Below are positions 6,703 through 35,688 of a stretch of 64,000 bases of DNA, one piece after another (position 1 is the stretch's first letter; every line of letters starts with the position of its first letter). Both the position numbers and the translations under genes were made by a program. Source of the DNA: Halopiger goleimassiliensis (lineage in GTDB: Archaea > Halobacteriota > Halobacteria > Halobacteriales > Natrialbaceae). The stretch spans positions 2,121,360-2,185,359 of the forward strand of contig NZ_HG315690.1 of NCBI RefSeq assembly GCF_000455345.1, in the 5' to 3' direction. Under the pieces are notes generated by a model, which saw only the letters and a program-made list of their open reading frames with translations, made no database searches and had not been told where the DNA came from.

Positions 6703-7158
6703 GATATTGGTTATCGTTGCCGTCCGGCCCACACGTAAGACGTCTGCAGACGGGCGCTGTCGCTAGGGGGGTATTTGGTCGTTCGAGACGCCGGACTCAG
6801 TGTCGATGTGTCGACCATTCTGGGCGGAGGACCACGCAGAGGGAGTATTCCTTTTCGATCGTTTGCCAGTGACCGACGGGATAAGCAAACGCTACAGACG
6901 ACGACTTCGACTCGTGACGAAGGGGGGGGCCAATCAACCCGGACTCTTTCGGTCACATCCGTGCATTGCGGGACGATCACGCTAGCCTCCGGTCGAACCC
7001 GCTACTACTAGTCAGTTCCCAGCACCCGGATTCGTCCGGTTTTTCACAGTCAATAGATGTACACAGCGACCACCTACAGTACCGGATCCCGGATAAATCG
7101 TCCGTAGAACCTCGAAACGTGCTCTATCCTTATTACAGGACTGGGGGGTAAGCCGCCT
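6703..7158. other. Intergenic region between divergent genes
   Basis: This 456-bp spacer separates the leftward sulfatase-like gene from the rightward sugar-nucleotide operon. It contains a short run of G (near 6921-6928) and the TATA box of the operon (7128-7138). I see no convincing coding sequence or RNA gene in it. Confidence 0.5.
7128..7138 (+). promoter_or_regulatory. TATA box of the nucleotide-sugar operon
   Basis: CCTTATTACAG is centred about 26 nt upstream of the ATG at 7159, predicting a leaderless transcript for the dehydrogenase-epimerase-glycosyltransferase operon. Confidence 0.5.
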
Positions 7159-8424
7159 ATGGACGTAAGTATCATTGGTGGTGCAGGTCACGTCGGGTTG
7201 CCGCTCGGACTCGTCCTGGCAGATTCCGGTCACGACGTCACGCTCGTCGACACCGATTGTGACAAACTCGAGACGATCCGGCAAGGGACGCTCCCCTTCT
7301 ACGAACCCGGGGCCGAAGCGTTGTTGCAGAGCGCCCTCGAGACCGGTCGACTCACCTGTACCGATCGGATGGACGCGGTTCGTGACTCGAGCGCGGTCGT
7401 TTTCGTCCTCGGGACGCCCATCGACGAACATCACAACCCGCAGATGGAGGGACTGCTCGAGGTGGTCGACGAATCCGTTCCACACCTCTCGCCGGGGGAT
7501 CTCCTGGTCTTCCGATCGACCGTCTACCCCGGAATGACTCATCGCGTGCGCGACTTGCTCGCAGACCGCGGCCTGACGGTCGGCGAGGACGTGTATCTCT
7601 CGTTCGCGCCGGAACGGATCGCCCAGCACAAAGCAATCGAGGAGATCAGGTCACTCCCACAACTCGTCGGTGCGTTCGACGACGAGAGCTACGAGCGTAC
7701 CGTCGAACTGTTCGATTCGGTCGTCGACCGCTGTTTACGGTTGACACCGACGGAGGCGGAACTCGGAAAACTCTTTACCAACATGTGGCGGTACCTCACG
7801 TTCGCCGCCGCCAACGAGTTCCACCTGATCGCGGAGTCGTTCGCCAAACAGTACGACGTGAACATCCACCGAATACTGGATACGACGAGCGAGGACTATC
7901 CGCGATTCGACGTTCCCTCGCCCGGTGCGAACGTCGGCGGTCCCTGTCTCACCAAGGACGGCTGGTTCCTGATCGACAACATCCCCTACAACGAACTCGT
8001 TTCGGCGTCGTATCAGATTAACGAAGGAATGCCCGCCCAGATCGTCAATCGAATGCTCGATATGCGACCGGGGCCGGAGAAGATCGCCGTTCTCGGGATG
8101 ACGTTCAAGGCCAACTCGGACGACACCCGCAACTCCGTTTCGTTCAAGATGCGCAAACAGCTCAGGATGCGTGGGTTCGAGCGCGTCGTCGAGGTCGAAC
8201 CGAACGTCGAGGGATACGATTCCCTCGCCGATATCGAAGACAGCGACTGGGTGATCCTGATGACGCCCCACGACGAGTTTCGGGACTTCGACCGGATTAC
8301 GGATCTCGTCGGCAACGACGACTGTCTCTACTGCGACCTGTGGGGTGCCTGGGAACCCATGCGGTACGACTCGGCGAACGGCTACTTCTACGGCTACGAG
8401 TACGAGGAGGTGACGGCCCGATGA
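7159..8424 (+). CDS. Nucleotide-sugar dehydrogenase (UDP-glucose / UDP-ManNAc 6-dehydrogenase family)
   Basis: This 421-residue, three-domain enzyme performs the two-step NAD-dependent oxidation of a UDP-hexose to a UDP-uronic acid. MDVSIIGGAGHVGLPLGLVL is the N-terminal Rossmann motif. The central helix region has GKLFTNMWRYLTFAAANEF, and VGGPCLTKDG carries the catalytic Cys. The C-terminal domain has VLGMTFKANSDDTRNS, typical of the family. It is first in an operon with the epimerase (4-bp overlap at 8421-8424) and the GT at 9427. The exact substrate (glucose or an N-acetyl sugar) is not readable; uronic acids are expected in haloarchaeal glycans. Confidence 0.9.
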   Translation: MDVSIIGGAGHVGLPLGLVLADSGHDVTLVDTDCDKLETIRQGTLPFYEPGAEALLQSALETGRLTCTDRMDAVRDSSAVVFVLGTPIDEHHNPQMEGLLEVVDESVPHLSPGDLLVFRSTVYPGMTHRVRDLLADRGLTVGEDVYLSFAPERIAQHKAIEEIRSLPQLVGAFDDESYERTVELFDSVVDRCLRLTPTEAELGKLFTNMWRYLTFAAANEFHLIAESFAKQYDVNIHRILDTTSEDYPRFDVPSPGANVGGPCLTKDGWFLIDNIPYNELVSASYQINEGMPAQIVNRMLDMRPGPEKIAVLGMTFKANSDDTRNSVSFKMRKQLRMRGFERVVEVEPNVEGYDSLADIEDSDWVILMTPHDEFRDFDRITDLVGNDDCLYCDLWGAWEPMRYDSANGYFYGYEYEEVTAR

Positions 8425-9407
8425 ACGTCCTCGTCGCGGGCAGCGAGGGATCGCTGATGCAGTGGACGATCGACCACCTCCTCGAGGCGGGCCACGACGT
8501 ACTCGGCGTCGACAACCAGTCGCGGTACGAGGATTACGACCTGACCAGGGTCGTCGACCGGGACCGCTACGAGTACGTTCGGGCCGACCTCACGGATCCG
8601 GACGTCGCCGTGGAACTGACTGAGGACGTCGACGGAATCATAAACGCAGCGGCACTGATCTACGGCGTCAAAGGGTTCCACGAGTACCCCGCGGACATCC
8701 TCTCGAACGACCTGACGATCCACCGAAACCTGCTCGAGGGAGCAGTCGAGAACGACGTCCCACGGGTCGTCTACATCTCCTCGTCGATGGTCTACGAACA
8801 GGACGAGACGCCACATCGCGAGGACGACGTCTGGGACAGTCTCGTCCCGTCGACGGATTACGGCCTCTCGAAGGTCGTCGGCGAACGGTACAGTCGAGCG
8901 TTCGCCGACCAGTACGACGTCACTTACACTATCTGGCGACCGTTCAACATCATCACGCCGTACGAGCGCGGCGAGGACGAACCCGGCATGAGTCACGTCT
9001 TCGCCGACTTCATCCGAAAGATCCTGATCGAAGAGCAAAACCCGATGGAAATATTCGGCGACGGCGAACAGGTCCGGTGTTTCACCTGGATCGACGAGGT
9101 CGCCGAGGCTATCGCCACCCAATCGTTCGTCGACGAGACGAAAAACGAGGCGTACAACCTGGCCAACCCCGAACCGGTTACGATGAAGGAACTCGCCCGA
9201 CGCATTCACCGAGCGGGCGTCGAACGCGGCTTGCTCGAGGACGAACCCCTCGAGTTCGAACACGTACCGATCTACGACGACGACGTGAAAGAACGGGTTC
9301 CCGTCGTCGAGAAGGCCGCCGAGGACTTCGGCTGGCAGCCCGAGGTCAAACTCGAGGATTCGCTCGAACGCTGTATCGACGAGGTCGACGAACTGTATCT
9401 CGACTGA
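8421..9407 (+). CDS. NAD-dependent epimerase/dehydratase (extended SDR)
   Basis: This 328-residue protein starts at ATG 8421, coupled by ATGA to the stop of the dehydrogenase. VAGSEGSLMQWTIDHLL is a variant of the G-x-x-G-x-x-G dinucleotide loop. SSSMVYEQDE and DYGLSKVVGERYSRAF supply the Ser and Y-x-x-x-K active-site residues. RPFNIITPYERG and EQVRCFTWIDEVAEAI are family motifs of sugar-nucleotide epimerases and decarboxylases. A longer reading frame upstream overlaps the dehydrogenase and is spurious. It probably modifies the UDP-uronic acid made by its neighbour, by epimerisation or decarboxylation. Confidence 0.87.
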   Translation: MNVLVAGSEGSLMQWTIDHLLEAGHDVLGVDNQSRYEDYDLTRVVDRDRYEYVRADLTDPDVAVELTEDVDGIINAAALIYGVKGFHEYPADILSNDLTIHRNLLEGAVENDVPRVVYISSSMVYEQDETPHREDDVWDSLVPSTDYGLSKVVGERYSRAFADQYDVTYTIWRPFNIITPYERGEDEPGMSHVFADFIRKILIEEQNPMEIFGDGEQVRCFTWIDEVAEAIATQSFVDETKNEAYNLANPEPVTMKELARRIHRAGVERGLLEDEPLEFEHVPIYDDDVKERVPVVEKAAEDFGWQPEVKLEDSLERCIDEVDELYLD

Positions 9408-9426
9408 TGGAGGGATCGATCGTACG

Positions 9427-10719
9427 ATGAGTTCGAACGCTTCCTCCCCGTCGGTCGTGCTCGTGAGCCAGTTTTTCGATCCGGATACCTCCGCGAACTC
9501 TATCCTGTTGTCGGACGTGGCCTACGGCCTCGCGGATCGAGGCGTGGACGTTACCGTCGTGACGACCCAGCCATCCTACACCGACGACGACCGAACGTCG
9601 AAACAGCCGACGTCGGAGGTCGTCGACGGCGTCCAGATTAGACGGCTTCCGGCGACGCGGTTCGACCGGAACGCCGGGCTGGCGAAACGCATGCTAAACG
9701 AACTGTCGTTCTTTCTCGCGGCGTTCGTCTACCTCGCAGTGCGAAAGCGAGGCGACGTCCTCTTGTTACCGACGTCCCCGACGTTCATGCCGATCGCCGG
9801 ATGGCCGCTTCGATACAGAGGGTACCGGCCGGTCCCGATCGTCATGGACCTCTACCCCTCGATGGCGGTCGCACTCGACTATCTCGAGGCGGACAGCCCG
9901 ATCAGACGCGTCTGGGACTGGTTGAACCGTCGGGCGTACCCGAAGGCCGAACTGACGGTCACGATCGGTGAACGCATGGCCGAACGGATCCAGGCGGAGT
10001 ACGGACCCATCCCGGTACGCGTGATCCACAACTGGGAAGACGGTGAGTTCATCGAACCCACCGAAAAAGCCGACAACGAGTTCGCACGCCGACACGGGTT
10101 CGACGCACAGTTGACGGTCCTCTACTCCGGTAACCTCGGTCGCCACCACGAGCTCGAGAGCGTCCTCGAAGCAGCGACCGCGCTCGAAGAGGACGACGAT
10201 GTGACTGGCTTCGAGTTCGTCTTTATCGGTGACGGCGGAACGAAGGAGAAACTACAGCGGATGGCCCGCGAGCGCGACCTCGAGTCGGTACAGTTTTTGC
10301 CGTATCAGCCGGAAGAGGAGCTTCCGAAGTCCCTTACGAGCGGCGACGTCTCGCTGGTGACGATGCGCCGAGCGGTCGAAGGACTCTGCGTCCCGAGCAA
10401 GTTCTACACTGCGCTCGCGAGCGGGCAGGCCGTACTGGCCGTCGCGACGCCGACTTCCGAGATCGCTCGAGTCGTCGAGAGAACCGACTGCGGTCTCGTC
10501 GTGGAACCGGGCGATGCGGAGGGACTCGAAGAGGCCGTTCGGTTCTGGCTCGAGAACCCGGAGCGAGTGATTGAGATGGGGAACGCTGCGAGGAACGCTT
10601 TTGAGAGCGGATATACGAAAAACGCTGCGATCGACGAATACCACGATGTCGTTCGAACGATCGCCTCGGAACCAACGTCGAAGCCGAGTATGCCGGTGCA
10701 GGCCGGTCGATCGGGATGA
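9427..10719 (+). CDS. Glycosyltransferase family 4, WbuB-like
   Basis: This 430-residue GT-B enzyme begins 20 bp after the epimerase, as the third gene of the operon. SVVLVSQFFDPDTSANS is the WbuB-type N-terminal loop. VIHNWEDGEF precedes the C-terminal domain, which has TVLYSGNLGRHHELE, FVFIGDGGTKEKL and VPSKFYTALASGQAVLAV. The last replaces the classic E-x7-E stretch, as is usual in the WbuB/fucosaminyl group. A weakly hydrophobic stretch near residues 95-130 may contact the membrane. Acceptor and donor are unknown; by context it adds a sugar supplied by the two preceding enzymes to a lipid-linked glycan. Confidence 0.88.
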   Translation: MSSNASSPSVVLVSQFFDPDTSANSILLSDVAYGLADRGVDVTVVTTQPSYTDDDRTSKQPTSEVVDGVQIRRLPATRFDRNAGLAKRMLNELSFFLAAFVYLAVRKRGDVLLLPTSPTFMPIAGWPLRYRGYRPVPIVMDLYPSMAVALDYLEADSPIRRVWDWLNRRAYPKAELTVTIGERMAERIQAEYGPIPVRVIHNWEDGEFIEPTEKADNEFARRHGFDAQLTVLYSGNLGRHHELESVLEAATALEEDDDVTGFEFVFIGDGGTKEKLQRMARERDLESVQFLPYQPEEELPKSLTSGDVSLVTMRRAVEGLCVPSKFYTALASGQAVLAVATPTSEIARVVERTDCGLVVEPGDAEGLEEAVRFWLENPERVIEMGNAARNAFESGYTKNAAIDEYHDVVRTIASEPTSKPSMPVQAGRSG

Positions 10720-10964
10720 GTGCAAAGGCGTTTCGGGAGTCGAGAACTAGAACCTGTCCCCGTATTGTCGCTCGGGAACGAACGCACCAATCATATCGGG
10801 TCCTCTGCTAGTACTGGATTTCGTAACCGGTTTTAGGCTCGTCGAACGATAGCGATTCTCGAGCTAGTGAACGTCACCATATCACTTGAACTACGTGTGG
10901 TGGATCACCAACGGTGTGTTAAATCAGGTCGACTCGAGGGGGGACTATGTAACAGTGTCGTAAC

Positions 10965-10970
10965 AATATA
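10965..10970 (+). promoter_or_regulatory. TATA box of the FkbM methyltransferase gene
   Basis: AATATA (within CAATATATCC) is centred 26-27 nt before the ATG at 10994, so that ATG and not the GTG at 10982 is the likely leaderless start. Confidence 0.5.
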
Positions 10971-10993
10971 TCCGTTAGCCGGTGTGTGAGGGT

Positions 10994-11833
10994 ATGGCTA
11001 CAGCATCCAGCGCTATCGACTCGGTTTTACAAGACGGAGTCGCAGAGACGCTTTCTAAAGGTGGGAGCCTGCTTCCGTCACCGGTTGCGATTCCGTACGA
11101 GATGGTCCTTCACGCAATACACCCGGATTACGATTTCGTCACCGTGAAGCCGAATGGCGAGACGTGGATTGCCGTCAATCGAAAGACAGGTGATGCATAT
11201 CACTTTCCTCGCTGTCCTCACGCCGGACAGTACCGTCACGTCGCGACTGGATATACGGGGAACATGGTAGAGAAGTATACGTTAGACGGGTTCGTCGAAC
11301 TGGAATCGGACGACGTCGTGGTCGACGGTGGAGCGTTCGTCGGCGCGTTTACAAGGGCAGCAGCAGCAAAAGCATCCACAGTTCTCGCCGTCGAACCGAG
11401 TCCCGCGACGCTTCACGCGCTCAAACTCAATACGAGCCAACTGGACAACGTAACTGTCGTTCACGGTGCACTGTGGCACGAATCGAACACCCTACAGTTG
11501 CATCTCGGCGTAGACGCAAGCGATCACTCACTAATCGACATCGACGACGAGGCTTTGGGGCATTCCGTGGAGGTCCCTGCCTATCGCCTTGACGAACTCG
11601 CACCCCGGCACGGACTCGAGTCAATCGACTTCCTGAAAATCGATGCGGAGGGGGGAGAACCGGAGGTTCTCCGCGGGGCACGTTCAAGGGAGATCGAAAA
11701 ACTGGCCGTCGATTGTGGGCCGGAACGTCGTGGAACAACGACCGCTGGAGAAGTGACCGATATGTTGCAGGAACGCGGCTATTCGACTGCCACTGAGGAC
11801 GGAATCGTATTCGCTCGACACGAAGACGCGTGA
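10994..11833 (+). CDS. FkbM-family SAM-dependent methyltransferase
   Basis: This 279-residue protein starts at ATG 10994, chosen because the TATA box at 10965-10970 fits it exactly; a GTG four codons upstream is the alternative. The C-terminal half holds the Rossmann SAM-binding core: VVDGGAFVGAFTRAAAAKAS is motif I, VLAVEPSP is motif II, and IDFLKIDAEGGEPEVLRGA is the FkbM hallmark. The N-terminal hundred residues are family-specific. FkbM enzymes O-methylate hydroxyls, often on sugars. It stands alone on the plus strand next to the flippase, and the local base composition appears less GC-rich than in the flanking operons. Probably methylates the polysaccharide. Confidence 0.88.
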   Translation: MATASSAIDSVLQDGVAETLSKGGSLLPSPVAIPYEMVLHAIHPDYDFVTVKPNGETWIAVNRKTGDAYHFPRCPHAGQYRHVATGYTGNMVEKYTLDGFVELESDDVVVDGGAFVGAFTRAAAAKASTVLAVEPSPATLHALKLNTSQLDNVTVVHGALWHESNTLQLHLGVDASDHSLIDIDDEALGHSVEVPAYRLDELAPRHGLESIDFLKIDAEGGEPEVLRGARSREIEKLAVDCGPERRGTTTAGEVTDMLQERGYSTATEDGIVFARHEDA

Positions 11834-11861
11834 GGTGACGAAACGTAGACGAGCAGGGCAA

Positions 11862-13355
11862 TCAGATTTCCTCCTGCTCGATTGCTTCAATGAGCACGCG
11901 ATCCCGATTCTCTAACCCAAGCAAATAGATAATAGCGAGGAACGTGACGCCTCCGATCGTGCCGGACACGACCAGTGCAGCTATCCCCGTGAGCACCTCC
12001 GAAACCAAGAGGAAAACGAGCAGCGGCGGCCAGAGGGCAGCGACCCCCTTCCAGTAATCTAGGGAGTACGGGAGCACCCCCACGTAGTATTTCGCCTCGA
12101 GCAGGCGAGCGATGTTGAGCGTAGCGAGGGAGAAGGTGGTCGCGATAGCCGCTCCGAAAATCCCATACCACTGTATGAGAACGTAATTGAGGGCGGCGTT
12201 CAGCACGAGCATTCCGATCGAATTGTACAACTCCAACCGTTCGAACTCCGTCATCTTGAGCACGAATCCACTCGGGCCGGTGCTCGCGACAATTACCTGG
12301 CCGCCGATGAGGGCGATCAGTGTACTCGATCCGGCCGTGAACTCCGATCCAAATAGCGACAGGATTTCAGACGAGAATACTACCAGAAAGAGGGAAAGAA
12401 AGAGGGTGACGTACGCAGTCCACTTCGTGATTGACGTATACAGGTCCCTCAGATACGTTCGATTACCGTTACTGTATGCATCCGCGATAAGACTGGGAAA
12501 GATCATATTCGCTGCATAGATGATGGTGGTCATCAGCATGGACGTCTGAAACGCTATCTGATAGATGCCCACATTGTCGGGCGAGACAAACGCACTGAGA
12601 AACAGGATATCGATCCACGATGCAGCGGTCGAACTGACACCCGCAAATAATAACGGGAGCGAAAATGTGAGGATCTCACGCGACTGTAGCACCGGGTTCG
12701 CGTACGCGGCGAACGCGCCCAACCGGTAGAGATAGTATACGACGAGAACGACGCCAACCGCTAGCGAAAGGATGTAACTGTAGATCACAAGCCGTAAATC
12801 CGACACTGCGAACGAGACGATCGCAATGAGTGTCACTGCGAGGCCCGATTGAGCGATATCACGCGTATAGACGGAGTACTTCGTCTCTTTGAATCCTCGA
12901 GTCGCGTGCATCCCTACCATCATTAACGCGAGAAGCGGGATACCAACCGAAAAGTGCCGAATGACTGGTCGATACGCTTCGTAGCCGGTTTCGAACAGTT
13001 CGAGTCCGATGTTGAGGACGAGTACCGTCACGATCGCGAATCCGATCGAGAAGAGAAACGTCGAGAACACTGCACCAGTTAGCTTCCGTTCGTCTCCATC
13101 CGATTCGTGTATCGAGACGTACTTCTCTGCTGCAACGTCGAATCCGGCACGAGCAAATGTGGCCCCGATCTGAAGAACGACCAAACCGAAGGCGAAAAAG
13201 CCGACTGCTCCAGCCCCTAACCCGCGGGCGATAAAAAACTGAAGGAAATACCGAAACAGCTTCCCGATCACCGTACCGACCAGCGCGATGCTCATCAGCA
13301 TCACGACCGATTTAGCGAACAGCGGATGACTCGGTACGATCTCTCGTACACGCAC
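11862..13355 (-). CDS. Polysaccharide flippase (MOP superfamily, Wzx-like)
   Basis: This 497-residue membrane protein has about 12-14 hydrophobic helices spread along its length and few charged residues between them. Examples are SVVMLMSIALVGTVIG at the N-terminus, AVGFFAFGLVVLQIGA, and repeated leucine/valine-rich helices in the C-terminal half. GLGAGAVGFFAFG and WYGIFGAAIATTFSL are typical of polysaccharide exporters of the RfbX/MATE-like group. It translocates lipid-linked glycan across the membrane. The start is GTG at 13355. It is convergent with the FkbM gene (28-bp gap). GC content looks lower than in the epimerase downstream. Confidence 0.88.
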   Translation of the reverse strand: MRVREIVPSHPLFAKSVVMLMSIALVGTVIGKLFRYFLQFFIARGLGAGAVGFFAFGLVVLQIGATFARAGFDVAAEKYVSIHESDGDERKLTGAVFSTFLFSIGFAIVTVLVLNIGLELFETGYEAYRPVIRHFSVGIPLLALMMVGMHATRGFKETKYSVYTRDIAQSGLAVTLIAIVSFAVSDLRLVIYSYILSLAVGVVLVVYYLYRLGAFAAYANPVLQSREILTFSLPLLFAGVSSTAASWIDILFLSAFVSPDNVGIYQIAFQTSMLMTTIIYAANMIFPSLIADAYSNGNRTYLRDLYTSITKWTAYVTLFLSLFLVVFSSEILSLFGSEFTAGSSTLIALIGGQVIVASTGPSGFVLKMTEFERLELYNSIGMLVLNAALNYVLIQWYGIFGAAIATTFSLATLNIARLLEAKYYVGVLPYSLDYWKGVAALWPPLLVFLLVSEVLTGIAALVVSGTIGGVTFLAIIYLLGLENRDRVLIEAIEQEEI

Positions 13356-13508
13356 AGTTGTCGTACGGCCTCTATCACCAGGGAAAAACGTTGGTGATTA
13401 GGAAGGCGTTACAGCGGAGAAACGAGCCTCGAACGGTAGTAGCCGACAAATCGCCGACAGAGCGGGAACGATGATCGACGCACCAGTTCACGGTCCGGTT
13501 TCACCCGT

Positions 13509-14471
13509 TTACGTCTGTGACGTTCGGCAATCGGCGTGATTACGATGGGCTTCCAGATAGTCGACGGTCGCAGCAATACCATCGGATAAGGGAATTTCGG
13601 GTTCGTAGCCGAGTTTCGACGTCGCCTTGCTCACGTCCGCGAGGCGACGTTCGATGACGTACGGCCGCGGGTGCTCTACGTGGACGGTTTCGGCGTCGCC
13701 CACGGCGTCGGCGACCGCGTTCGCGAGCGCACGAATTTCCGTCTCGGAGCCCGTGCCGACGTTGAACGTCTCGTTTCGTCCCGCGGGACCAAGCGCTGCG
13801 AGCGTACAGTCGACGGCGTCGTCGATGTAGGTGAAGTCACGGGTCTGCGTGCCGTCGCCGTGGATTTCGATCGGTGCTCCGGAGAGCGCCCGGTCGACGA
13901 ACTTCGGGATGACGAACCCGTACTCGGAGGAGTCCTGTCGCGGTCCGTAGACGTTGAAGTAGCGGAGGATGGTGTGGTCGAGACCGTGCGTCTCCGAGTA
14001 CGCCCGTACGAACCGTTCGCTCGCGCGTTTCGCGACGGCGTAGTTCGTCTCCGGGGATTTGACGTCGTCTTCGGCGTACGGGACGTCCGGCGCGTCGCCG
14101 TAGACCTCCGACGTCGAGGCGAAGAGCACGCGGTCGACGTCCGATTCGACACAGGCCTCTATCACGGTCCGGGTGCCGTCGAGGTTGACGCGCAGCACCT
14201 CGAGCGGTCGCTCGAGGGTTCGCCGAACGCCCATCATCGCGGCCATGTGGACGACCACGTCGTGGTCGGCGACTGCCGACCGGACGACGCTCTCGTCGCG
14301 AACGTCGGCCTCGATAACCCGGTCGGCGGGGAACGACCGGACGTGTGCCTCCTCGCCGCTCGAGAAATCGTCGAGGATCGTGACCGCGTTCTCGTCGGCG
14401 AGTCGTTCGGCGACGTGGCTGCCGATGAATCCGCCACCGCCGGTGACGAGGACGCGTGCGTCGCTAATCAT
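13509..14471 (-). CDS. NAD-dependent epimerase (GalE-like, SDR)
   Basis: This 320-residue extended SDR has TGGGGFIGSHVAERL as its NAD-binding loop, FASTSEVYGDAPDVPYAED as the active-site Ser/Thr region, and NYAVAKRASERFVRAY with the Y-x-x-x-K pair. DFTYIDDAVDCTLAA and FNVGTGSET are C-terminal motifs of UDP-sugar epimerases. The reaction is probably 4-epimerisation of a UDP-hexose or uronate. Its start overlaps the end of the upstream nucleotide-sugar dehydrogenase by 8 bp (14464-14471), forming a two-gene operon. Confidence 0.9.
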   Translation of the reverse strand: MISDARVLVTGGGGFIGSHVAERLADENAVTILDDFSSGEEAHVRSFPADRVIEADVRDESVVRSAVADHDVVVHMAAMMGVRRTLERPLEVLRVNLDGTRTVIEACVESDVDRVLFASTSEVYGDAPDVPYAEDDVKSPETNYAVAKRASERFVRAYSETHGLDHTILRYFNVYGPRQDSSEYGFVIPKFVDRALSGAPIEIHGDGTQTRDFTYIDDAVDCTLAALGPAGRNETFNVGTGSETEIRALANAVADAVGDAETVHVEHPRPYVIERRLADVSKATSKLGYEPEIPLSDGIAATVDYLEAHRNHADCRTSQT

Positions 14472-15885
14472 GGTCTCCCTCCTGTGGCCCGACTTCGGCG
14501 GTCGCTTCTGGCCCGGATCGAGGCTGCGTGGCGGGCCGACCGGGTTCGAGGGAGAGCGCTCGCAACCGGGTCAGGTCGCTCGCTTCGACTGCGTCCGGAT
14601 CGAGCAACCGGGCGAAGTCGACGACGATCGGGTCTTCGGCCATCCACGTCGCCATCGCGTCCGGTTCGAGGTGCTGGAACTCGTCGTGTGCGGCCCCGAA
14701 GACGGCGACGTCGGCGTTCTCGATAGTTGGTGGGAGCGTCGACTCGTTGTACAATCCGGTCGATTCGATCTCCGCGTTCGGTTCGAAGTTGGGATCGAAG
14801 GTGGAGACCTGAACGTCGTTCTCGCGGAGGGTTCGGACCAGCGTCACTGCCGGGCTGTTCCGCGTGTCCTCGACGTTCGGTTTGTACGCCGTACCGAGGA
14901 CGGCGACCTCGGCCATCGAGGGCGATTTCCCGAGGGACTCGAGGGCGCGGACGATCCAGTCACCGTAGTAGGTCGGCATCGACCGGTTGATCTCGCGCGC
15001 GGTCGGCACCAGGTCCAGGTCGGCCTCGTACCCCTCGAGTGCGGCCTCGAAGTAGTGGGGATCGATCGGGAGGCAGTGTCCGCCGACGCCGAGTCTGGGC
15101 TCGTACCGGTGGAAGTTCCACTTCGTATCCGCCCCGTCGATCACCTCCCAGGTGTCGATGCCCAGGGTGTCCAGCGCCCGTGCGATTTCGTTGACGATGG
15201 CGATGTTGACGTCCCGCTGGACGTTTTCGACGAGTTTGATCGCCTCGGCGACCTCGAGCGACGAGACCGGAACGACCGAGTCGGTGACGTCCTCGTAGAG
15301 GGCCAGGGTCTCCCCACGCCACCAGTCGTCGATCGAACCCACGACGCGTGGTGCCGACTTGGACCGATCGTCGCCCGGGCTGTACCGTTCGGGGACGTGT
15401 GAGACGCCGACATCGGTGCCCGCATCGAGGCCCGACGTTTCGAGTACCGGGACGAGTTCGCGGCGGCTACAGCCGGGATAGATCGTACTCTGGATCACCA
15501 CCAGGTCACCCCGCTCGAGGACCGTCCCGACGCTCTGGCAGGCCGACCGGAGGGCCGACAGGTCGGGATCGGACGCCTCGTCGAGCGGCGTCGGCACGCT
15601 GACGACGTAGGTATCACAGTCGGCAGCGTCCGAGATGTCCGTCGTGACGGTACAGTGCCCGTCGGTGACGTGTTCCCGGAACGTATCGGTTTCGAAGGGG
15701 TGGGTCCCGCGTCGGATCGATTCGACCAACGCCTCGTCTTTGTCGACCCCGACTACCCGTCGGCCGGCGGTGCAGAATCCGACCGCCGAGTGGTAGCCGA
15801 CGAACCCCATGCCGACGCACGCGACTCGAGAGCGGTCGCGACTAGGCCGACTAGAAGCTGTCGTGTCACTGCCTCGATCAGGCAT
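14464..15885 (-). CDS. Nucleotide-sugar dehydrogenase (WecC/UDP-ManNAc dehydrogenase-like)
   Basis: This 473-residue protein is the second UDP-sugar dehydrogenase of the locus and distinct from the one at 7159. ACVGMGFVGYHSAVGF is the Rossmann loop. VSVPTPLDEASDPDLS and SHVPERYSPGD are central motifs. LGVGGHCLPIDPHYF carries the catalytic Cys and matches the WecC-type G-G-H-C signature, better than the VGGPCLTKD of the first enzyme. VLGTAYKPNVEDTRNSPA is in the C-terminal domain. An N-terminal extension of about 20 residues and an acidic C-terminal tail are unusual. The ATG fits a TATA box 27 nt upstream. It supplies a UDP-uronic or N-acetyluronic acid to the epimerase it overlaps. Confidence 0.9.
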   Translation of the reverse strand: MPDRGSDTTASSRPSRDRSRVACVGMGFVGYHSAVGFCTAGRRVVGVDKDEALVESIRRGTHPFETDTFREHVTDGHCTVTTDISDAADCDTYVVSVPTPLDEASDPDLSALRSACQSVGTVLERGDLVVIQSTIYPGCSRRELVPVLETSGLDAGTDVGVSHVPERYSPGDDRSKSAPRVVGSIDDWWRGETLALYEDVTDSVVPVSSLEVAEAIKLVENVQRDVNIAIVNEIARALDTLGIDTWEVIDGADTKWNFHRYEPRLGVGGHCLPIDPHYFEAALEGYEADLDLVPTAREINRSMPTYYGDWIVRALESLGKSPSMAEVAVLGTAYKPNVEDTRNSPAVTLVRTLRENDVQVSTFDPNFEPNAEIESTGLYNESTLPPTIENADVAVFGAAHDEFQHLEPDAMATWMAEDPIVVDFARLLDPDAVEASDLTRLRALSLEPGRPATQPRSGPEATAEVGPQEGDHD

Positions 15886-16219
15886 AGCGCTCGAATCAGG
15901 CCAGTTGCTTAAAAAGGGTCGTTACCGTTATGCACGAATTGGAGCGATTACGTGGCGTCGTTACGGGCTAATACGTCGGTGGGGTCGCGGAAGGGTGATC
16001 GAACGAGGTCGAACGAAGACTCGAAGCGCGTTCGTAATCCGACTCGAACCGGGCCGACTCCGACTGACCGCCGATCGGTCGAGCGGTAGGCACCGGTTAG
16101 GATCGATCCGTCGCTCACTGGCGAGGACTCCTCGAGCCCCGAGATCGAGTTCCGATCCCGGCTTCGCGGCGTAGGTGATCGTTCGTTCCGTTCGATCAAC
16201 GACACCACCGCTGCTCGAG
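15886..16219. other. Intergenic region
   Basis: This 334-bp gap lies between two leftward glycan genes. It holds the TATA box of the dehydrogenase gene at 15909-15915. The remainder has open frames without recognisable protein features. I see no RNA gene or repeat. Confidence 0.4.
15909..15915 (-). promoter_or_regulatory. TATA box of the WecC-like gene
   Basis: On the minus strand the sequence reads TTTTTAA, centred 27 nt upstream of the ATG at 15885, which predicts a leaderless mRNA. Confidence 0.5.
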
Positions 16220-17644
16220 TCAGGAGCGGCGGACGAGGTCCGCCAGATCGGCGAACACGTTCCGGAACTGGCCCAGCAGGATGCGCACGTCGAACCAGAA
16301 CGACCGATCACGGACGTACTGCAGGTCGGCCGCCAGTTTCTCGGCCGGTTCCTGGCTCGTCGCGCCGGATATCTGTGCGAGTCCGGTCAGCCCAGGCTTG
16401 ACGAACCATCGGCGTCGCCACTGCGGGGCGCTCGCTTCGAACTCCGGTTCGAGTTTCGTCTGAGCGGGACGGGGACCGACGACGCTCATGCGGCCGACGA
16501 GGATCGACCACAACTGCGGAATTTCGTCGAGGTGAGTCGTTCTGAGAAGTTGGCCCAGCGGCGTCTGGCGATCCTCGTCGATCACGGTTCCGACCTCGCC
16601 TCCTTCCTTCGGTTTGAGCGTTCTGAACTTCCGCAGTTCGAACGTGCGCCCGAGACGGCACGTCCGTTGCTGCGTGAAAAAGACCGGCCCTTCGCCTTCG
16701 ATCGTGATCGCGAGCGCGATGAGCACGACGACCGGCGCGAGGACGACCAACGCCGTCCCCGCGACTGCGACGTCGAACGCCCGTTTCACCAGCGACTCGA
16801 GCGGCCCCCAGGGCTCGAGGTCGATCTCGACGAACTCCCCCGGCCCGTCGCCAGCGACGAGTATCGAATCGGCGTGTCGCCGGTGGCCGAGGGCGTCGAG
16901 GCCGAGTTCTCGACAGAGTCGTAACGTACCGAAAAAGCCCCGTCGGTCGGGGGACGCGAACGCGAGGGCGACCGTATCGATGTCCCGATCGCGAAGCGTC
17001 TCTGCCAGCTGGGACCAGCTCTCCGTTCGACGCTTCGCGATGGAGCGGCCCTCGCGACCCACGCCGATGACCATTGGGGGGTCACCGTCTTCGTCGTCCG
17101 CTATCGCGTGACCCGTCGAACTCGAACCGTTGCCATCCGGGACTGGGGTCGAGGACTGCGATCCGTCGGTGGCGTCACCCGACCCGCCCGCGCCCGAGGA
17201 TCGTGGGGGAGCGAGGATACCGACTGGGTCCCTCGGGAGCGAGCGGATCGCCTCCTCGATCAATGCGGGGTCGTCCCCGACGATAGCGATCCGATCGTTC
17301 CTGGAGGCCCCTCGAGATGAGGATACAAGGGATAGGGCTGCCACGGACGCCCCGGAAGCGGGGTCACTCGTCCCAACAGTTGCCAGGAGCGTGAGGACGA
17401 TTCCGAGTAGAGCGACGGCCAGACAGGTGGCGACGAGAGAGTTCTGCTCGGTGTCTGTCCCACGACGAACCGGGGCATCGTCCGTTTCGAGCCTTCCGAT
17501 CGTACGGGTCGGATCGGCCTGGACGGCCGTTCTCGCGGGTATTCGGTCGTCGGCTGAGATATCACCTGGCGCTCCGAACGTCGCCGAGATAGCGGCGTCG
17601 ACCCGCTTCCTGGTATCGAGCACTGCCGCTCGGTTCGTCGTCAT
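16220..17644 (-). CDS. Polyprenyl-phosphate sugar phosphotransferase (initiating transferase, Bac_transf domain)
   Basis: This 474-residue protein has the initiating glycosyltransferase domain from about residue 285 to the end. KRAFDVAVAGTALVVLAPVV is its membrane re-entrant helix, ELRKFRTLKP the K-F-R-T-L/M motif, GRMSVVGPRP the catalytic-region motif, and KPGLTGLAQISG plus DLQYVRDRSFWFDV the C-terminal motifs. This class transfers a sugar-1-phosphate to a polyprenyl (dolichyl) phosphate and starts repeat-unit assembly. The N-terminal half has a single clear hydrophobic helix (about 50-70) and long polar stretches, where bacterial WcaJ proteins have four helices, so the topology is odd. It is the last gene of the glycan locus. 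Confidence 0.88.
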   Translation of the reverse strand: MTTNRAAVLDTRKRVDAAISATFGAPGDISADDRIPARTAVQADPTRTIGRLETDDAPVRRGTDTEQNSLVATCLAVALLGIVLTLLATVGTSDPASGASVAALSLVSSSRGASRNDRIAIVGDDPALIEEAIRSLPRDPVGILAPPRSSGAGGSGDATDGSQSSTPVPDGNGSSSTGHAIADDEDGDPPMVIGVGREGRSIAKRRTESWSQLAETLRDRDIDTVALAFASPDRRGFFGTLRLCRELGLDALGHRRHADSILVAGDGPGEFVEIDLEPWGPLESLVKRAFDVAVAGTALVVLAPVVVLIALAITIEGEGPVFFTQQRTCRLGRTFELRKFRTLKPKEGGEVGTVIDEDRQTPLGQLLRTTHLDEIPQLWSILVGRMSVVGPRPAQTKLEPEFEASAPQWRRRWFVKPGLTGLAQISGATSQEPAEKLAADLQYVRDRSFWFDVRILLGQFRNVFADLADLVRRS

Positions 17645-17856: not shown

Positions 17857-19437
17857 TTAGCCAGCGGCCCAGACGTTCGTCGCCGAGACGGCGCTGAACT
17901 GGACGTTCTCGTTCTCCTGCATGCTCACCTGTGCCGAGTCGGCGCTGTCGCCGTTCTCGGCGATGGCGATGGCAGCCTGCTGCTCGTTGACGTTCTCCTG
18001 GGAGATGAACTGGACCTGCTCGAGTTGCGCACTGGCGTGCTGTTCGGGATCGTTGGTCTGCTGGGCATCGTAGTCGTAGGCGATCCCGTCCATGCCGTCG
18101 ACGTCGTCGCCACCGACGGTGACGTTCGTGATCGAGGTCACCATCGCGTTCTCGTACTGGTGGCTCGGGCCGGCGTAGACGTTCAACGCGTCGGCGAAGC
18201 CGATCTGTGCGTTGAGGTTGCTCTGGTAGGCGAGCTGGACCGACGTCGCGTTGCTCTCGTTGGTCGCGTACGCGAACGCCGTGTTCTGCAGGTTGACGTT
18301 CATCTGTTCGGAGACCTGCTCCTGTCCGACGCCGGCGGTGGCAGACTGCACCTCGTCGCTCGCTTTCTTGTGCTTGCCCTCTTTCTCGTCGGTGCCGAAG
18401 GTTTCGACGGTGGTCTCCATGTCGATGACGCCGTTGCTGTCGCCGATACCGGCGGTCGCGACGTGCATGCCGTCCATCGCGGCGAAGACGTTGGCCGCGT
18501 CGGCCTCGGCGAGCTGTTCGTTGACGTTGGTCTGCTCGGTGATCTGGATCGCCGTCGCGACGCTGTCCTCGCCGACCGCGATGGCCACGGCACCGTCTTG
18601 CTGGTTGATGTTCTCCTGCGAGACCGCCTGGGCCTGCGCGACTTCGGCGGACGCGACCTGATCGGCACCGGGGCTGTTCTCGGATTTCACGTGATCGCCA
18701 GTCTTGTCGGCGAAGTTGCCGTTGCCGACGTAGACGTTCGTCGCGTTAGCGACGCCCTGTTGCAGGTTCTGGTTGGTCTGCTGTGACTGCTGTAGGGCGG
18801 TCGCCTCGCTGGCGTTCTCCGCGATCGCGAACGCGGTGTTTTGCTCGTTGTAGTTCAGCTGACCGACTTCCTGGGCCTGCGTCACGACCGCGTCGGCCTC
18901 CTGATCGCCGTCGACTTCTGCCTTCTCACCTTTCTTGTCGGCGATGCCCCAGCCGTCGAAGGTCTGACCGTCGCCGTTACCCATCAGGATGGTCACTTCA
19001 CCGACATCCTCGAACTGGGTCTGCTCGAGCTGGACGTTCTCGGCGGACGCATCGGCGAGTTGGTCGTTAGAGTTCATCTGCGTGGCCTCCTGGACTGCAG
19101 TGGCCTCGCCGCCGTCGATCGAGATCGACGTCGCGTTCGCCTGTTGGTGGATGTTTACCTGATCGACGTTCTGGTACTGGGTGACTTCCACGTTGGTCGA
19201 GGCGTCACCCGACGCGTGGTCCTCGATGTACTCCTCCAGGGTCGTCTCATCGAGGTCGGCACCGAAGACCAGGTACAGACCCTCGTCGCTCTCGAGCGCG
19301 TACGCGGACTCGTCGTCCGGGTCGGCGTCGTCGCCGGCAACGGCCATCGGAGCCCCGACGGCCAGCATCGCTATCGCGACCATACACGCCATCAAAACCG
19401 TCGTACACTGTGAACGTATCGTCGTCGTATCTGTCAT
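17857..19437 (-). CDS. Secreted curlin-like Q/N-repeat protein, five modules
   Basis: This 526-residue protein has a signal peptide (about 1-35, hydrophobic core LMACMVAIAMLAVGAP) and a short acidic lead-in. Five modules follow at about 83-135, 183-235, 264-317, 367-420 and 469-522. Each has one strand-like segment of the type Q-x-N-x-N-x-Q-x-x-A-x-A-I-A and a second about 22 residues later, then closes with A-x-N-V. The alternating Q/N/A pattern and 22-residue period resemble curlin repeats of CsgA/CsgB, which stack into an amyloid beta-solenoid. Acidic linkers of 28-50 residues separate the modules. It has no cysteine-rich, transmembrane or PGF-CTERM tail. Likely extracellular fibre subunit; this is inference from the repeat pattern, and no homolog search was possible. 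Confidence 0.7.
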   Translation of the reverse strand: MTDTTTIRSQCTTVLMACMVAIAMLAVGAPMAVAGDDADPDDESAYALESDEGLYLVFGADLDETTLEEYIEDHASGDASTNVEVTQYQNVDQVNIHQQANATSISIDGGEATAVQEATQMNSNDQLADASAENVQLEQTQFEDVGEVTILMGNGDGQTFDGWGIADKKGEKAEVDGDQEADAVVTQAQEVGQLNYNEQNTAFAIAENASEATALQQSQQTNQNLQQGVANATNVYVGNGNFADKTGDHVKSENSPGADQVASAEVAQAQAVSQENINQQDGAVAIAVGEDSVATAIQITEQTNVNEQLAEADAANVFAAMDGMHVATAGIGDSNGVIDMETTVETFGTDEKEGKHKKASDEVQSATAGVGQEQVSEQMNVNLQNTAFAYATNESNATSVQLAYQSNLNAQIGFADALNVYAGPSHQYENAMVTSITNVTVGGDDVDGMDGIAYDYDAQQTNDPEQHASAQLEQVQFISQENVNEQQAAIAIAENGDSADSAQVSMQENENVQFSAVSATNVWAAG

Positions 19438-20119
19438 GATTCGTTTGACGGAAACCGTGAGAGTCTTGGTTTCTGCAACTCCACGGCGTGAACCGTCGTA
19501 TCCGGATGACAGACTTTGTTATCTGTCAGTTGATGGCGATATGAACTCGCCTACCGAACGGAAGCCGATTGCTTACGATCGGAAACCGGTTGCTTCGAAC
19601 ACAACTGGCCGACAGTGAGGGAACCGGTGTCACGTTTCGAACTGTCGAAATCGCGATCCTGGACGGGCGTCGGGATCGAAACGGGGCGGTAAGTCTCAGC
19701 ATACGGGATCGTTTCACCGGTCGAAGGGAGCCGTTACTTCGGAACGGTTCTCGATCGAATCCGTTTATCCGCAATTTCGGCCCCTGGAGACGTCGGATCG
19801 GTTGGCAGAACTAGAAGCGAACGCATCGATAGGGAACACGTATCTCTCACCGTCGAAACCGCCACCGATGGAACGGCCGTCTGCAGGCCTCGAAAGGACC
19901 GTTCCAGCGGTTCCAATCCGACTCTTCAGGCTGAAACCGTTTGTCGGCTTCAAGTACCACACCGTGATGAGGTCCGACCGGGCAACGCGTCACAGCGGGG
20001 AGATAGAGGGAGTCGGCAGGTACGCCCGTGACGAGCGACGACCCGACGATAGGGTCGCCGGTCCGTTACGGAGGGTACCCCCTGTGTGATGCGTGCCTCG
20101 TAACCAACACGAGATACAC
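19438..20119. other. Long divergent intergenic region between the two curlin-like genes
   Basis: This 682-bp stretch separates the leftward five-module gene from the rightward small partner. It looks less GC-rich than flanking coding DNA, and the open frames inside it lack protein-like composition. It presumably holds the promoters and control region for the pair. I could not pick out an unambiguous operator. Confidence 0.4.
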
Positions 20120-20551
20120 ATGAAGCGCGCAATCGCACTCACGCTCGCGGTCGTAATGGTCGGCAGCGTCATGTTCATGGCGCTAGCTGGAACAGCAGCG
20201 GCAGGAGGATACGAGGAGCCTGAGCCGGCACAGCCGGTGGAGATCGTCGAGGAACAGGCCCCGAGCGTAGTCCAGGAGTCGGCGACGGTGGTTGACCAGG
20301 CCCAAGACGTGACTCAGACGAACGCGGCCGAGTTCGACGCGACCGTCCAGCAGTCGGCCGACGCGGATAGTAGCCTCGATATCAGTATCGATCTCGGCGA
20401 CGATAGCGGCGCACTGATCAACGGTGGTATCAGCACCGGTGACGCCTCGGTCGACAACGTGACCCAGACCGCGACGGTCGACCAGACCGCCGACCAGAGC
20501 AACTCCAACACCCAGGCTGCTGAAGCCGTCGCTACGAACATCCTCGGCTAA
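20120..20551 (+). CDS. Small secreted Q/N-rich protein, possible partner of the curlin-like protein
   Basis: This 143-residue protein starts at ATG 20120, giving the signal peptide MKRAIALTLAVVMVGSVMFM with cleavage near AGTAAAGG (about 28). Nine extra codons to an upstream ATG would spoil the signal. The mature part is acidic and rich in Q, T, N, A and V, with VVDQAQDVTQTNAAEF and VTQTATVDQTADQSNSN. These are the same Q-x-x-x-x-Q-x-N type strands as in the divergent five-module protein, but fewer. A glycine- and aspartate-rich stretch (about 86-107) separates the two. Its size suggests a minor subunit or nucleator; that role is inference. Confidence 0.65.
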   Translation: MKRAIALTLAVVMVGSVMFMALAGTAAAGGYEEPEPAQPVEIVEEQAPSVVQESATVVDQAQDVTQTNAAEFDATVQQSADADSSLDISIDLGDDSGALINGGISTGDASVDNVTQTATVDQTADQSNSNTQAAEAVATNILG

Positions 20552-26751: not shown

Positions 26752-29616
26752 CTACCCGGTTTCGACTCCATCCCGCCCTACGAACGACAGCGACTGCAGC
26801 CTATCGACCGCCCGGGTAGCCTCGGTCCGCGTCTCGTACGTCCGAGTGCTCTCGAGAACCGTCGTCTCGCCCGCGTCGACGAGCCGCCAGCGCCAGCCGT
26901 CATCGGCCACGAACAGTTCGAACGCCGGCCCGTCACGTTCGAGAACGCTCGCGTCCTCGAGCGAGGAACGAACGGTAGTGACCGCCTGGTGTGCGTCCTC
27001 GACCGATTCCCACGCCTCGCTGGCGGTCGCGACGACGCGACCGTCGCCGTCGAGTAACCGCCAGCGCCAGCCGTCGTCGGTCTCTACGACGTCGAACGAC
27101 GCGTCGGTGCGGTCGATCCGTGCGGCCGACGAAGCGAGGCGTCTGACCCTCTCGATGGCCGACCGCACCGCCGACTCGGTCCCGACGCCTTCGACGCCAC
27201 CACCCAGTCGGTCACCGTCGCTCGAGACGAGCGACCACTGCCAGTCGTCGCCGGATCGCTCGAGGCGAATCGCCGCGGCGTCGGCAGCGAATATCGGCGC
27301 ATCGGGGGCGTGACGCTGGAGCCGCTCGACGGCTTCCCGGGTCGTCTCTCGATCGGCGTCCGAGCGGGTCCCGTCGGCGACCACCTCGCGGTTCCGATCG
27401 AGCAGGCACCAGTCCCAGTCGCCGCGGTCAGTGAGTTCGACGCAGTAGGCACCAACGTCGTGACTCGAGGCATCGGCTGCGATCTCGCGCACCGTCTCGA
27501 GGCGGTCGACGAGTTCGTCGTTGGTCGCGTACGCGTCTCCGGCGACGGCGATCGGTTCGCCCCCGGGCAGGACGAACCGCCAGCGCCACCCATCCGAAGG
27601 GGAGGACTGGAAGAGCGGCCGGTCGAGCCGGTGGACGGCCGCGTCGAGGTGCTCGAGCAGCCGCGTCATCGCCTCGCGAGCGCCCTCTCTGGTCGGATGG
27701 CTGGTCGGATCGAGGGCGACGAGGTTGCCGGCGCTGTCGACCAGTCGCCAGCGCCAGCCGTCCCCGGCCGCGAACAGTTCGAACGCCGCGGTTTCGATCT
27801 CGAGGACGTCGGCGTCGGGGGCCTGTTCCTTCAGCGTCATCATTGCTTCGGCAGCTTCCGTCCGGGAGTCGTGTTCCGTGCCGCTGTCGGCCAGCACGCC
27901 GCCGTTCTCGTCGATCAGTCGCCAGCGCCACTCGCCCGCGTCGGTCTCGTAGACGCGAAACGCCGCGTCGTCGAACTCGATGAGGTCGGCCTCGCGGGCC
28001 CCCTCGCGAACGCGTTCGATCGCGTCGGTCGCGGCCTCGGGATCTGGTGTCGGCTCCGGGCCGACGGCGAGAACCTCCCGCTCCGCGGTGACGAGCCGCC
28101 AGTACCAGCCGTCCGCGTCGACCGTCGCAGCGTCCGCGGGTGCGGGATTCGACTCCCTCGCCTGGCCGTCGGCCGACCCGTCCTCGCTCGAACCGTCGAT
28201 CGACTCGTCCGCCGGTTTCGAGACCGCTTCACCGGCTTCGGAACTCGCAGTCGACGTCGATACGCCGGCGGGAACGGCCGAATCCCCGTTCAGTTGGGCC
28301 GACGGCGGCGACGCCCCGTCGGTCCGAACCTCGGTGCCACCATCGGACGACCCTGGTCCCTCGAACGTCGCGGGATCGGTCGTCGGAACGACCTCGTACG
28401 CCGCGTCGTCGAACTCGAGGTGGTCGGCATCGGGCGCGTGCGCTGCGAACAGGTCGACCGCTCGCGTGAGTTCCTCGTGGGTCGAGGCCTCCCCGGCCGA
28501 GCGGGCGACCGTCCGACCGCTGCCGTCGACCAGTCGCCAGCACCAGCGGTCGTCCTCCCGGTACCGCTCGTAGGTCGGTTCGCCGGCGACCGTCACCGCG
28601 GCCGACTCGAGTCCCGAACGCACCGCGGCGGCGGCGTTCTCGGCGGTCCGCCGACTCTCGAACCGCTCGGTCGCGTCGGCGAGCACGTGGCTCGTCCCCT
28701 CGACCAGCCGCCACGACCACGCGTCGCCGTCCGCGTACAGTTCGAAGCCGACCCCATCGAGGGCGATCACGCGTGCGTCCGCGATGGTCTCGACGAACGG
28801 ATCGATCGCCGCGTCGGCACCGTCCGGATCGCGGTACCCGTCCGCGCTCTCGGCCAGCGCCGTTCGGTCCCCGTCGAGTAGCTGCCAGTACCAGCGGCCG
28901 TCGCGCCGGGTAACAGCGAACGCGGCCGTTCCGGGGTCGAGGACCTCGGCGTCGGGACCGCGCTCGTTCAGGACGGCGACCGCATCCCGGGCCTCGGCCC
29001 GGCATTCGTACCCTCGAGTCGCGGTCGCCAGGGTCGTTCCGTCCGAGCGAACCAGCGACCAGCGCCAGGTTTCGTCGTCTTCGTAGACGTAGAGCGCTGG
29101 GTCTCGCATCTCCCGCAAGGTCGCTCCTTCGATCGTCTCACGAAGCGTCTCGAGGTCGTCCCCGGACGCGGCAGGGGGAATCGCCTCCGGATCCCCCTCG
29201 GCGACGGTCTCGACTCGATGGACGCGAAGGGCCTCCTCCCCGTCGTTCGCGTCGTACCGGACGGCGACGTGACCATCGGCGTCGGTCTTCGTGGTGGGAA
29301 TCGCCACAGCGTCCGGATCGTCGCTCACCGCGGTCTCGTGCTGGCGGTCGAGAAAGCGAACGAGGGCGAGGACACAGCCCAGCGCCACCAGCCCCAGGCC
29401 GACGGCGACCCCGGTGCTTAGCTCGAGCCCTCGATCCGTCCACTGCACCGCGGCGATCGATCCCGAGGACGCCAGTCCCGCGACGGGGAGAGCGAGGCCG
29501 ACGAGAGCGGCCGGACCACCGTCCCGCGGAACGCTCGAGCCGTGACGGTTCGTTGTGGCTCGTTGCAGCCAGTCGACGGCCGACGGATCGGAACGACCGG
29601 GGCTCGAGACAGCCAT
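26752..29616 (-). CDS. Membrane protein with about twelve DUF1508/YegP-like W-x-W repeats
   Basis: The protein has 954 residues from ATG 29616; upstream frame lacks a protein-like start. Two hydrophobic helices near the N-terminus (about 35-60 and 70-90: PAALVGLALPVAGLASSG, TGVAVGLGLVALGCVLAL) anchor it. About twelve modules of 65-80 residues follow, each with a core such as DGWRWRLVD followed by G/A-x-x-V/L-A. The fifth module is interrupted by a long Ser/Pro/Gly-rich linker (about 430-500). The pattern matches the YegP/DUF1508 family, which normally has one or two copies. Twelve copies on a membrane stalk is unusual; a structural or binding role in the envelope or cytoplasm is possible. Function unknown. 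Confidence 0.78.
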   Translation of the reverse strand: MAVSSPGRSDPSAVDWLQRATTNRHGSSVPRDGGPAALVGLALPVAGLASSGSIAAVQWTDRGLELSTGVAVGLGLVALGCVLALVRFLDRQHETAVSDDPDAVAIPTTKTDADGHVAVRYDANDGEEALRVHRVETVAEGDPEAIPPAASGDDLETLRETIEGATLREMRDPALYVYEDDETWRWSLVRSDGTTLATATRGYECRAEARDAVAVLNERGPDAEVLDPGTAAFAVTRRDGRWYWQLLDGDRTALAESADGYRDPDGADAAIDPFVETIADARVIALDGVGFELYADGDAWSWRLVEGTSHVLADATERFESRRTAENAAAAVRSGLESAAVTVAGEPTYERYREDDRWCWRLVDGSGRTVARSAGEASTHEELTRAVDLFAAHAPDADHLEFDDAAYEVVPTTDPATFEGPGSSDGGTEVRTDGASPPSAQLNGDSAVPAGVSTSTASSEAGEAVSKPADESIDGSSEDGSADGQARESNPAPADAATVDADGWYWRLVTAEREVLAVGPEPTPDPEAATDAIERVREGAREADLIEFDDAAFRVYETDAGEWRWRLIDENGGVLADSGTEHDSRTEAAEAMMTLKEQAPDADVLEIETAAFELFAAGDGWRWRLVDSAGNLVALDPTSHPTREGAREAMTRLLEHLDAAVHRLDRPLFQSSPSDGWRWRFVLPGGEPIAVAGDAYATNDELVDRLETVREIAADASSHDVGAYCVELTDRGDWDWCLLDRNREVVADGTRSDADRETTREAVERLQRHAPDAPIFAADAAAIRLERSGDDWQWSLVSSDGDRLGGGVEGVGTESAVRSAIERVRRLASSAARIDRTDASFDVVETDDGWRWRLLDGDGRVVATASEAWESVEDAHQAVTTVRSSLEDASVLERDGPAFELFVADDGWRWRLVDAGETTVLESTRTYETRTEATRAVDRLQSLSFVGRDGVETG

Positions 29617-29826
29617 GCGTACCCGTCCCGTGCGCCGGACGGGCCATAATAATAGACTCCTTACGAACCGCAGGACGGCCGCCGGATCGTTCGGCGGCCG
29701 CTCGTGAGACGGCCCGGATCGGGTCGGAATCGGTCCTCGCGCCCCCGCCGGCGGAGAGTCAGAGTACGTGAAGGTGTACCGGTACATCGACCGGTCGACG
29801 AGCCTCCCGAGAAAGCGATGGGACGA

Positions 29827-33451: not shown

Positions 33452-33511
33452 CCGCGACGCAGTGACCGGTTCACCCCGCCGTGTCGCGTCCTCCCCGAAC
33501 CAGCACACGAG

Positions 33512-34390: not shown

Positions 34391-34416
34391 GGACGCCGGC
34401 TCGAGGGTGATCGTAC

Positions 34417-35298: not shown

Positions 35299-35383
35299 GG
35301 GCGACGGCGAACGTCCCGACATCTCGGAGTCAAGGCGGTCACGGGGCTACCGGTTCGTCCGTTCGAAAATCGCTCGAGACCGA

Positions 35384-35587
35384 TCAGACGAACAGGCCGC
35401 TGATCGAGTCGCCGAACAGCAACAGCAAAGCGACGGCCGTGAACGTCAGCGTGAGCCAGATGCCCAGCGCCATCGCAGCGGTGCGGGCCCGTTCGCGGTC
35501 GATCGTGACGGCGTCGTGGTCATCGGTCGCCGTCGCGGCGGCGTCGTCGCTGTCGGTTCCGACGGCGTGTCCTGATTCCGTGCTCAT
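35384..35587 (-). CDS. Small single-span membrane protein
   Basis: This 67-residue protein starts at ATG 35587 (MSTESGHAVGTDSDD). The first 45 residues are acidic and polar, with no cysteine, followed by one long hydrophobic helix, ALGIWLTLTFTAVALLLLFG, close to the C-terminus. The topology is likely N-in with a short outer tail. It sits 101 bp downstream of crtB on the same strand and convergent with cruF, so it may be co-transcribed with crtB. I do not recognise a family; a link to the carotenoid genes is inference from location. Confidence 0.65.
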   Translation of the reverse strand: MSTESGHAVGTDSDDAAATATDDHDAVTIDRERARTAAMALGIWLTLTFTAVALLLLFGDSISGLFV

Positions 35588-35688
35588 ACGTGGAGGGACG
35601 AACCGGTAGCCTACAACGACCCGACCTCGATTTCGAGGGTCTTGAAATACCCCGCCGTCGACCAGTCGGCGAACCGATCGGTCGAGGA

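Follow-up and report, generated by a model that had tools for sequence, protein, structure and literature searches.

A conserved haloarchaeal gene pair for secreted proteins with predicted beta-arch repeats

The window, a stretch of 64,000 nucleotides of the Halopiger goleimassiliensis genome (contig NZ_HG315690.1), contains two open reading frames of 526 and 143 residues on opposite strands with a 682 bp gap between them, and a check of the open reading frames agrees with the arrangement given in an earlier note on this DNA. Hydrophobic signal peptides are present at both N-termini, in line with the claim of that note that both proteins are secreted. The features of the two proteins, P0001 and P0002, and of the region between them are as follows.

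17857-19437, minus strand: large secreted five-module protein P0001, 526 amino acids (ORF; relatives)
19333-19437, minus strand: Sec-type signal peptide of P0001, about residues 1-35 (hydrophobic stretch ending in AVAG, conserved in the alignment; putative cleavage site)
19210-19299, minus strand: conserved N-terminal segment ALE..E.LYLVFGADL....LEEYIE.HA, residues 47-76 of P0001, outside the repeats
19033-19194, minus strand: module 1 of P0001 (module profile A4, E 2.8e-18)
18730-18897, minus strand: module 2 (A4, E 6.2e-20)
18487-18654, minus strand: module 3 (A4, E 3.0e-19)
18175-18342, minus strand: module 4 (A4, E 1.1e-19)
17869-18036, minus strand: module 5 (A4, E 1.4e-19)
19438-20119, no strand: divergent intergenic region, 682 bp
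19514-19523, minus strand: conserved element GATAACAAAG ahead of the large gene (intergenic alignment)
20120-20551, plus strand: small secreted partner P0002, 143 amino acids (ORF; relatives lie divergently beside the large gene)
within 20120-20551, plus strand: Sec-type signal peptide of P0002, residues 1 to about 28
20285-20347, plus strand: first half-module of P0002, residues 56-76 (profile h1, 12.8 bits; shuffle maximum 9.2)
20468-20542, plus strand: second half-module of P0002, residues 117-141 (profile h2, 18.4 bits; shuffle maximum 6.7)

The start codon of P0001 is backed by an alignment of 29 relatives, in which Phe57 and Gly58 of the N-terminal segment are invariant (29/29). P0001 has no sequence match in Pfam, NCBIfam or the PDB, and a PHROGs search gave nothing convincing. 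Profiles matched PhoQ (PDB entry 3bqa, E 0.016 to 0.2), which we take as chance arising from a short Q/N stretch.

The five modules of P0001 are 55-57 (about 56) residues long and are joined by low-complexity linkers of 26-47 residues. Each module contains two strands spaced 27-28 residues apart; the 22-residue period proposed earlier is not found and is instead the curli value. The other elements of the repeat described in the earlier note are present: there are five modules in the 526-residue protein, A-x-N-V closes all five, and the strand pattern Q-x-N-x-N-x-Q is genuine, with nine copies against 0.04 in composition-preserving shuffles. The longer form Q-x3-Q-x-N-x-N-x-Q likewise has nine copies in the mature protein, against a mean of 0.01 in 3000 such shuffles. 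Both counts are far beyond chance. The module consensus is A.A.V.Q.Q.V.Q.N.NEQ..A.AIA..GS.ATA.Q...Q.N.N.Q.G.A.A.NV. When 145 modules are compared, each conserved column tends to be followed by a variable one in strand-like alternation. Charged residues make up 1.3% of the 27 columns that are conserved (A, V, Q, N, G and T) compared with 25% of the 29 variable ones, a hallmark of strands that bury one face and expose the other.

Using 55 sequences as input, AlphaFold gave one confident model of P0001 out of five (68.7 versus 33-49). This best model contains ten strands, a pair in each module and each about 20-30 residues long, with pLDDT values above 90 inside the modules and below 50 in the linkers; the N-terminal segment is of low to middling confidence. 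P0001 may be read as a stack of two sheets in which every module supplies one rung. A Foldseek search against 350,542 PDB chains returned four matches, of which the top three are FapC, CsgA and FapC (E 0.31, 3.1 and 6.1), none of them significant. VIA-align places residues drawn from all five modules of the model (between 49 and 479) on 114 successive residues of a curli subunit, 93 of them at 2.5 Å, but the Z-score of 2.9 for CsgA is below any safe level. It is the names FapC and CsgA rather than the scores that are telling, and they point, without significance, to the class of functional amyloids. A search of a viral structure library gave 32 weak matches with unrelated names and was set aside. 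In the AlphaFold check for a beta-solenoid, which had been proposed with the original description, five confident arches are predicted, but in a single model of the five and with no significant structural match.

The half-module profiles h1 and h2 were built from the large proteins, and both match P0002 above all shuffles, so P0002 amounts to one module cut into two halves. The second half was also picked up by profile A4 in a whole-genome search. The small protein had been described as carrying the same strand types as the large one, and this is correct, but it does not hold several repeats; it holds the halves of one module, about 40 residues apart. Its AlphaFold model is poor (pLDDT 51.7, pTM 0.17), as expected if a single rung cannot fold alone and equally as expected if the idea is wrong. 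In most relatives, comparable secreted proteins of 90-290 residues are encoded divergently to the large gene, singly or as two or three in tandem. The small proteins were also checked for a fixed order of their half-modules and do not have one, the two orders occurring 24 and 21 times. The role of nucleator given to P0002 earlier is at best conjectural.

Some Natrinema partners (L046:11280-12095 and related loci) have an extra globular-looking domain between the half-modules. Elsewhere in the window's genome (C1, about 812030-812410, minus strand; L179:9028-9408) a third secreted protein, of 126 amino acids with two weak modules, lies downstream of archaellum-like flaJ, flaCE, flaH and flaI genes; it is related to the small divergent partners found in other genomes.

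A gap similar to the intergenic region, of about 500-900 bp, separates both genes in the relatives. In 31 of 35 aligned intergenic regions the element GATAACAAAG is found ahead of the large gene, at a distance of either 85-87 or 98-99 bp from its start codon, and in the window it has a single match where 0.03 are expected. This copy is inside a perfect palindrome, GACAGA-TAACAAAG-TCTGTC (N8 spacer), that is kept in the closest relatives only. GATAACAAAG is a candidate promoter or regulator site. A scan for promoters of the sigma-70 type was set aside because the host is an archaeon.

Full-length relatives of P0001 are found in 28 of 61 related genomes. Of a wider set of 391 Halobacteria genomes, 85 have them; 79 of these genomes belong to the window's own family and six lie elsewhere in the order, one of the six being marginal. 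Among named organisms they are present at 64 loci, in Natrialba, Natrinema, Halobiforma, Natronococcus, Natronorubrum, Halostagnicola, Haladaptatus and others, and the loci from the own family are mostly labelled Natrialbaceae. P0001 belongs to a real, conserved and previously undescribed haloarchaeal family of secreted, predicted beta-arch proteins that have a small partner. The number of modules is exactly five in 54 of 55 relatives and six in the remaining one, and every module (145/145) has its nearest counterpart under the same index in a different genome. The modules are therefore old and distinct, and selection maintains the stack as a whole.

Three export routes are seen among the relatives: plain Sec, Sec with a PGF-CTERM anchor, and Tat with a basic tail. 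P0001 itself has a Sec-type signal and no anchor, the PGF-CTERM signal being absent from its C-terminus. This signal is present at the C-terminus of five of 29 relatives, and archaeosortase A is encoded in the genome of the window; the anchor fits a cell-surface role for these relatives. The Tat-type relatives have twin-arginine signals of the RRGYLKG type and lysine-rich tails. Different types can coexist in one genome: a free and an anchored copy, for example, are found in one of the genomes (G001), and Sec and Tat copies occur together, for instance, in Natrinema gelatinilyticum, Haloterrigena salina and Natronococcus pandeyae. The divergent small partner is present at 36 of 41 Sec-type loci compared with one of 15 Tat-type loci, counting loci with enough upstream sequence and with types that we assigned from the signal sequences; the 36 include two near-identical copies in one organism. 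That export would differ from the bacterial system, as had been expected, is borne out by Sec here and by Sec with an archaeosortase signal or Tat in the relatives. Tat normally carries folded proteins. The Tat-type relatives therefore suggest that the stack of modules can be a folded soluble unit, which weakens a strict analogy with curli.

At lower positions in the window, 4085-17644 hold an exopolysaccharide or glycan cluster with glycosyltransferases, a flippase-like protein, two UDP-sugar dehydrogenases and a sulfatase. Its bacterial-type sugar transferase (PF02397) adjoins the large gene, and most relatives do not keep this neighbourhood. There the neighbours are housekeeping genes for a CdcH-type AAA ATPase and for LarC-like, RadB-like and CBS-domain proteins, so a general link between the P0001 gene and the cluster was rejected. 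On the other side of the gene pair, the window further encodes a 1011-residue protein in which an N-terminal hydrophobic segment is followed by many DUF1508 (PF07411) repeats in tandem, of the type DDGWRWRLVD (26752-29787), a fusion of a formate/nitrite transporter (PF01226) with two universal stress protein domains (PF00582; 29827-31728), and carotenoid (bacterioruberin) synthesis-like genes for a desaturase, a prenyltransferase, a membrane protein and a phytoene synthase (31913-36645).

The family probably works as a functional amyloid or as a rigid surface rod. The explanation that we favour, and to which we give about an even chance, is a system of extracellular beta-arch repeats that acts in the manner of curli or Fap and is identical to neither. 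P0001 would leave the cell by Sec and then fold outside, its five beta-arches stacked on one another. Each module would form one rung of two long strands, with the conserved Gln, Asn, Ala and Val residues pointing inwards as ladders in a dry interior and acidic residues facing the brine. The end rungs would present open sheet edges at both ends of the stack, so subunits could add end to end and build a fibre, or become part of the cell-surface matrix. P0002, as one rung in two halves, would probably join, start or cap the stack. The divergent partner at Sec-type loci (36/41) and the fixed number of five modules (54/55) speak for this reading, as do the alternation of uncharged and charged columns, the predicted arches, the names FapC and CsgA among the structural matches, the two half-modules of P0002 and the anchored relatives. 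Against it count the low Foldseek and VIA-align scores, the single confident model of P0001, the poor model of P0002, the Tat-type relatives and the varying order of the half-modules. A more specific version is put forward tentatively: an archaeal functional-amyloid system, complete in itself and separate in origin from curli and Fap, with a five-rung Sec-exported main subunit, a one-rung starter or cap, and paralogues that are anchored by archaeosortase or folded for Tat.

The strongest competitor is a folded, non-polymerising beta-solenoid at or near the cell surface, such as an adhesin or an S-layer-associated or polysaccharide-binding protein. Each molecule would be a rigid rod and the small proteins would be independent minor surface proteins. 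The fixed module number and the module-specific sequences suit such a rod, as do the PGF-CTERM-anchored relatives and the Tat-type relatives with basic tails, which would be exported folded; folding before export is a better fit to a soluble folded solenoid than to an unfolded curli-like subunit. The conserved N-terminal segment, which is not part of the repeats, could cap one end and halt end-to-end growth. In the window the gene also lies beside the exopolysaccharide-type cluster, but these surroundings are not kept in the relatives. Most Sec-type members lack an anchor, and the single-module partners would not form a stable solenoid alone and yet show the same buried pattern. We regard the rod as a serious possibility that is nonetheless somewhat unlikely. 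It is improbable that P0001 is an acidic secreted protein of disordered or low-complexity type and that its Q/N pattern says nothing about structure: the linkers are indeed of low complexity and the AlphaFold models are mostly not confident, but the strict alternation and the invariant Gln and Asn columns hold across 29 to 55 relatives.

That the pair is true curli, a diverged CsgA and CsgB acquired from bacteria, can be practically discarded: the beta-arch plan, the N/Q ladders, the five repeats and the side-by-side genes for a main and a minor subunit would agree with it, but the curlin motifs are at chance level, the family and its secretion pore are missing, the strands are 27-28 residues apart where curli has 22-23 residues per two strands, and the genes are divergent rather than in tandem. 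Three motifs describe curlin repeats (PMC10192328, PMC3521004). In P0001, Q-X10-Q occurs five times against 5.6 in shuffles, N-$-Psi-$-Psi-$-Q not at all against 1.0, and X6-Q-X-G-X2-N-X10 once against 0.35. The Pfam curlin search that had been proposed gave no PF07012 match to P0001 or P0002 at E values up to 10; none was found in the whole genome or in 145 Halobacteria genomes, while a positive control in E. coli matched. Csg transport genes had been noted as not nearby, and CsgG (PF03783) is in fact absent from the entire genome. With the motifs at chance, PF07012 and CsgG absent and a different period, the pair is not curli. Of the original likeness to CsgA and CsgB, the beta-arch repeats, the N/Q interior and the small divergent partner are supported, and membership of the curlin family is not.

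If the more specific, tentative version is true, this would be the first named protein for a haloarchaeal amyloid-like matrix. Haloarchaeal biofilms bind amyloid dyes, and a simple conserved two-gene family without a dedicated export machine would make the question testable and would show the N/Q-lined stacked-arch design to have been reached again in archaea. The Sec, anchored and Tat versions side by side allow one to ask whether rungs must leave the cell unfolded.

Among archaea, the biofilm matrix of Haloferax volcanii binds Congo red and thioflavin T, with no protein named for it (PMC4180959). The haloarchaeal matrix setting is shared, whereas the P0001 family is almost restricted to the window's own family of Halobacteria. 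In the literature searched, no haloarchaeal protein is named as an amyloid and no paper ties haloarchaea to functional amyloid; a single archaeal protein that has curli-like repeats is mentioned, without a name, by Dueholm et al. (PMC3521004). Amyloid of archaea is known from the sheaths of methanogens: MspA of the Methanospirillum/Methanosaeta sheath is secreted and has amyloid-prone segments at regular intervals (PMC6242892). By description it resembles P0001 in being secreted and in its regular spacing, but it forms a tubular sheath in methanogens, another class of archaea.

CsgA and FapC are built from imperfect repeats whose buried Asn and Gln residues form ladders (PMC12392863, PMC12822426), and the same plan is predicted for P0001. 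In Fap of Pseudomonas (FapC, FapB) the interior is lined by conserved Asn and Gln (PMC12392863), and the long rungs, the variable linkers and the one rung per repeat are as predicted for P0001. FapC is also the best Foldseek name, at its non-significant E of 0.31; P0001 and profiles A1, A3 and A4 gave no match to PDB sequences, FapC included. FapC has three Greek-key rungs and P0001 five modules of two long strands. With curli, P0001 has in common secreted imperfect repeats that are each predicted to form a strand-arc-strand rung, predicted buried N/Q ladders with Ala and Val between them and polar residues exposed, five repeats as in E. coli CsgA, and adjacent genes for a small and a large subunit. 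It differs in the repeat motif, in rung strands of about 27 residues compared with about seven each in curli, in the linkers of 26-47 residues, the N-terminal segment and the divergent genes, and in having no CsgG/E/F route; as the archaeal cell has a single membrane, no outer-membrane pore is needed.
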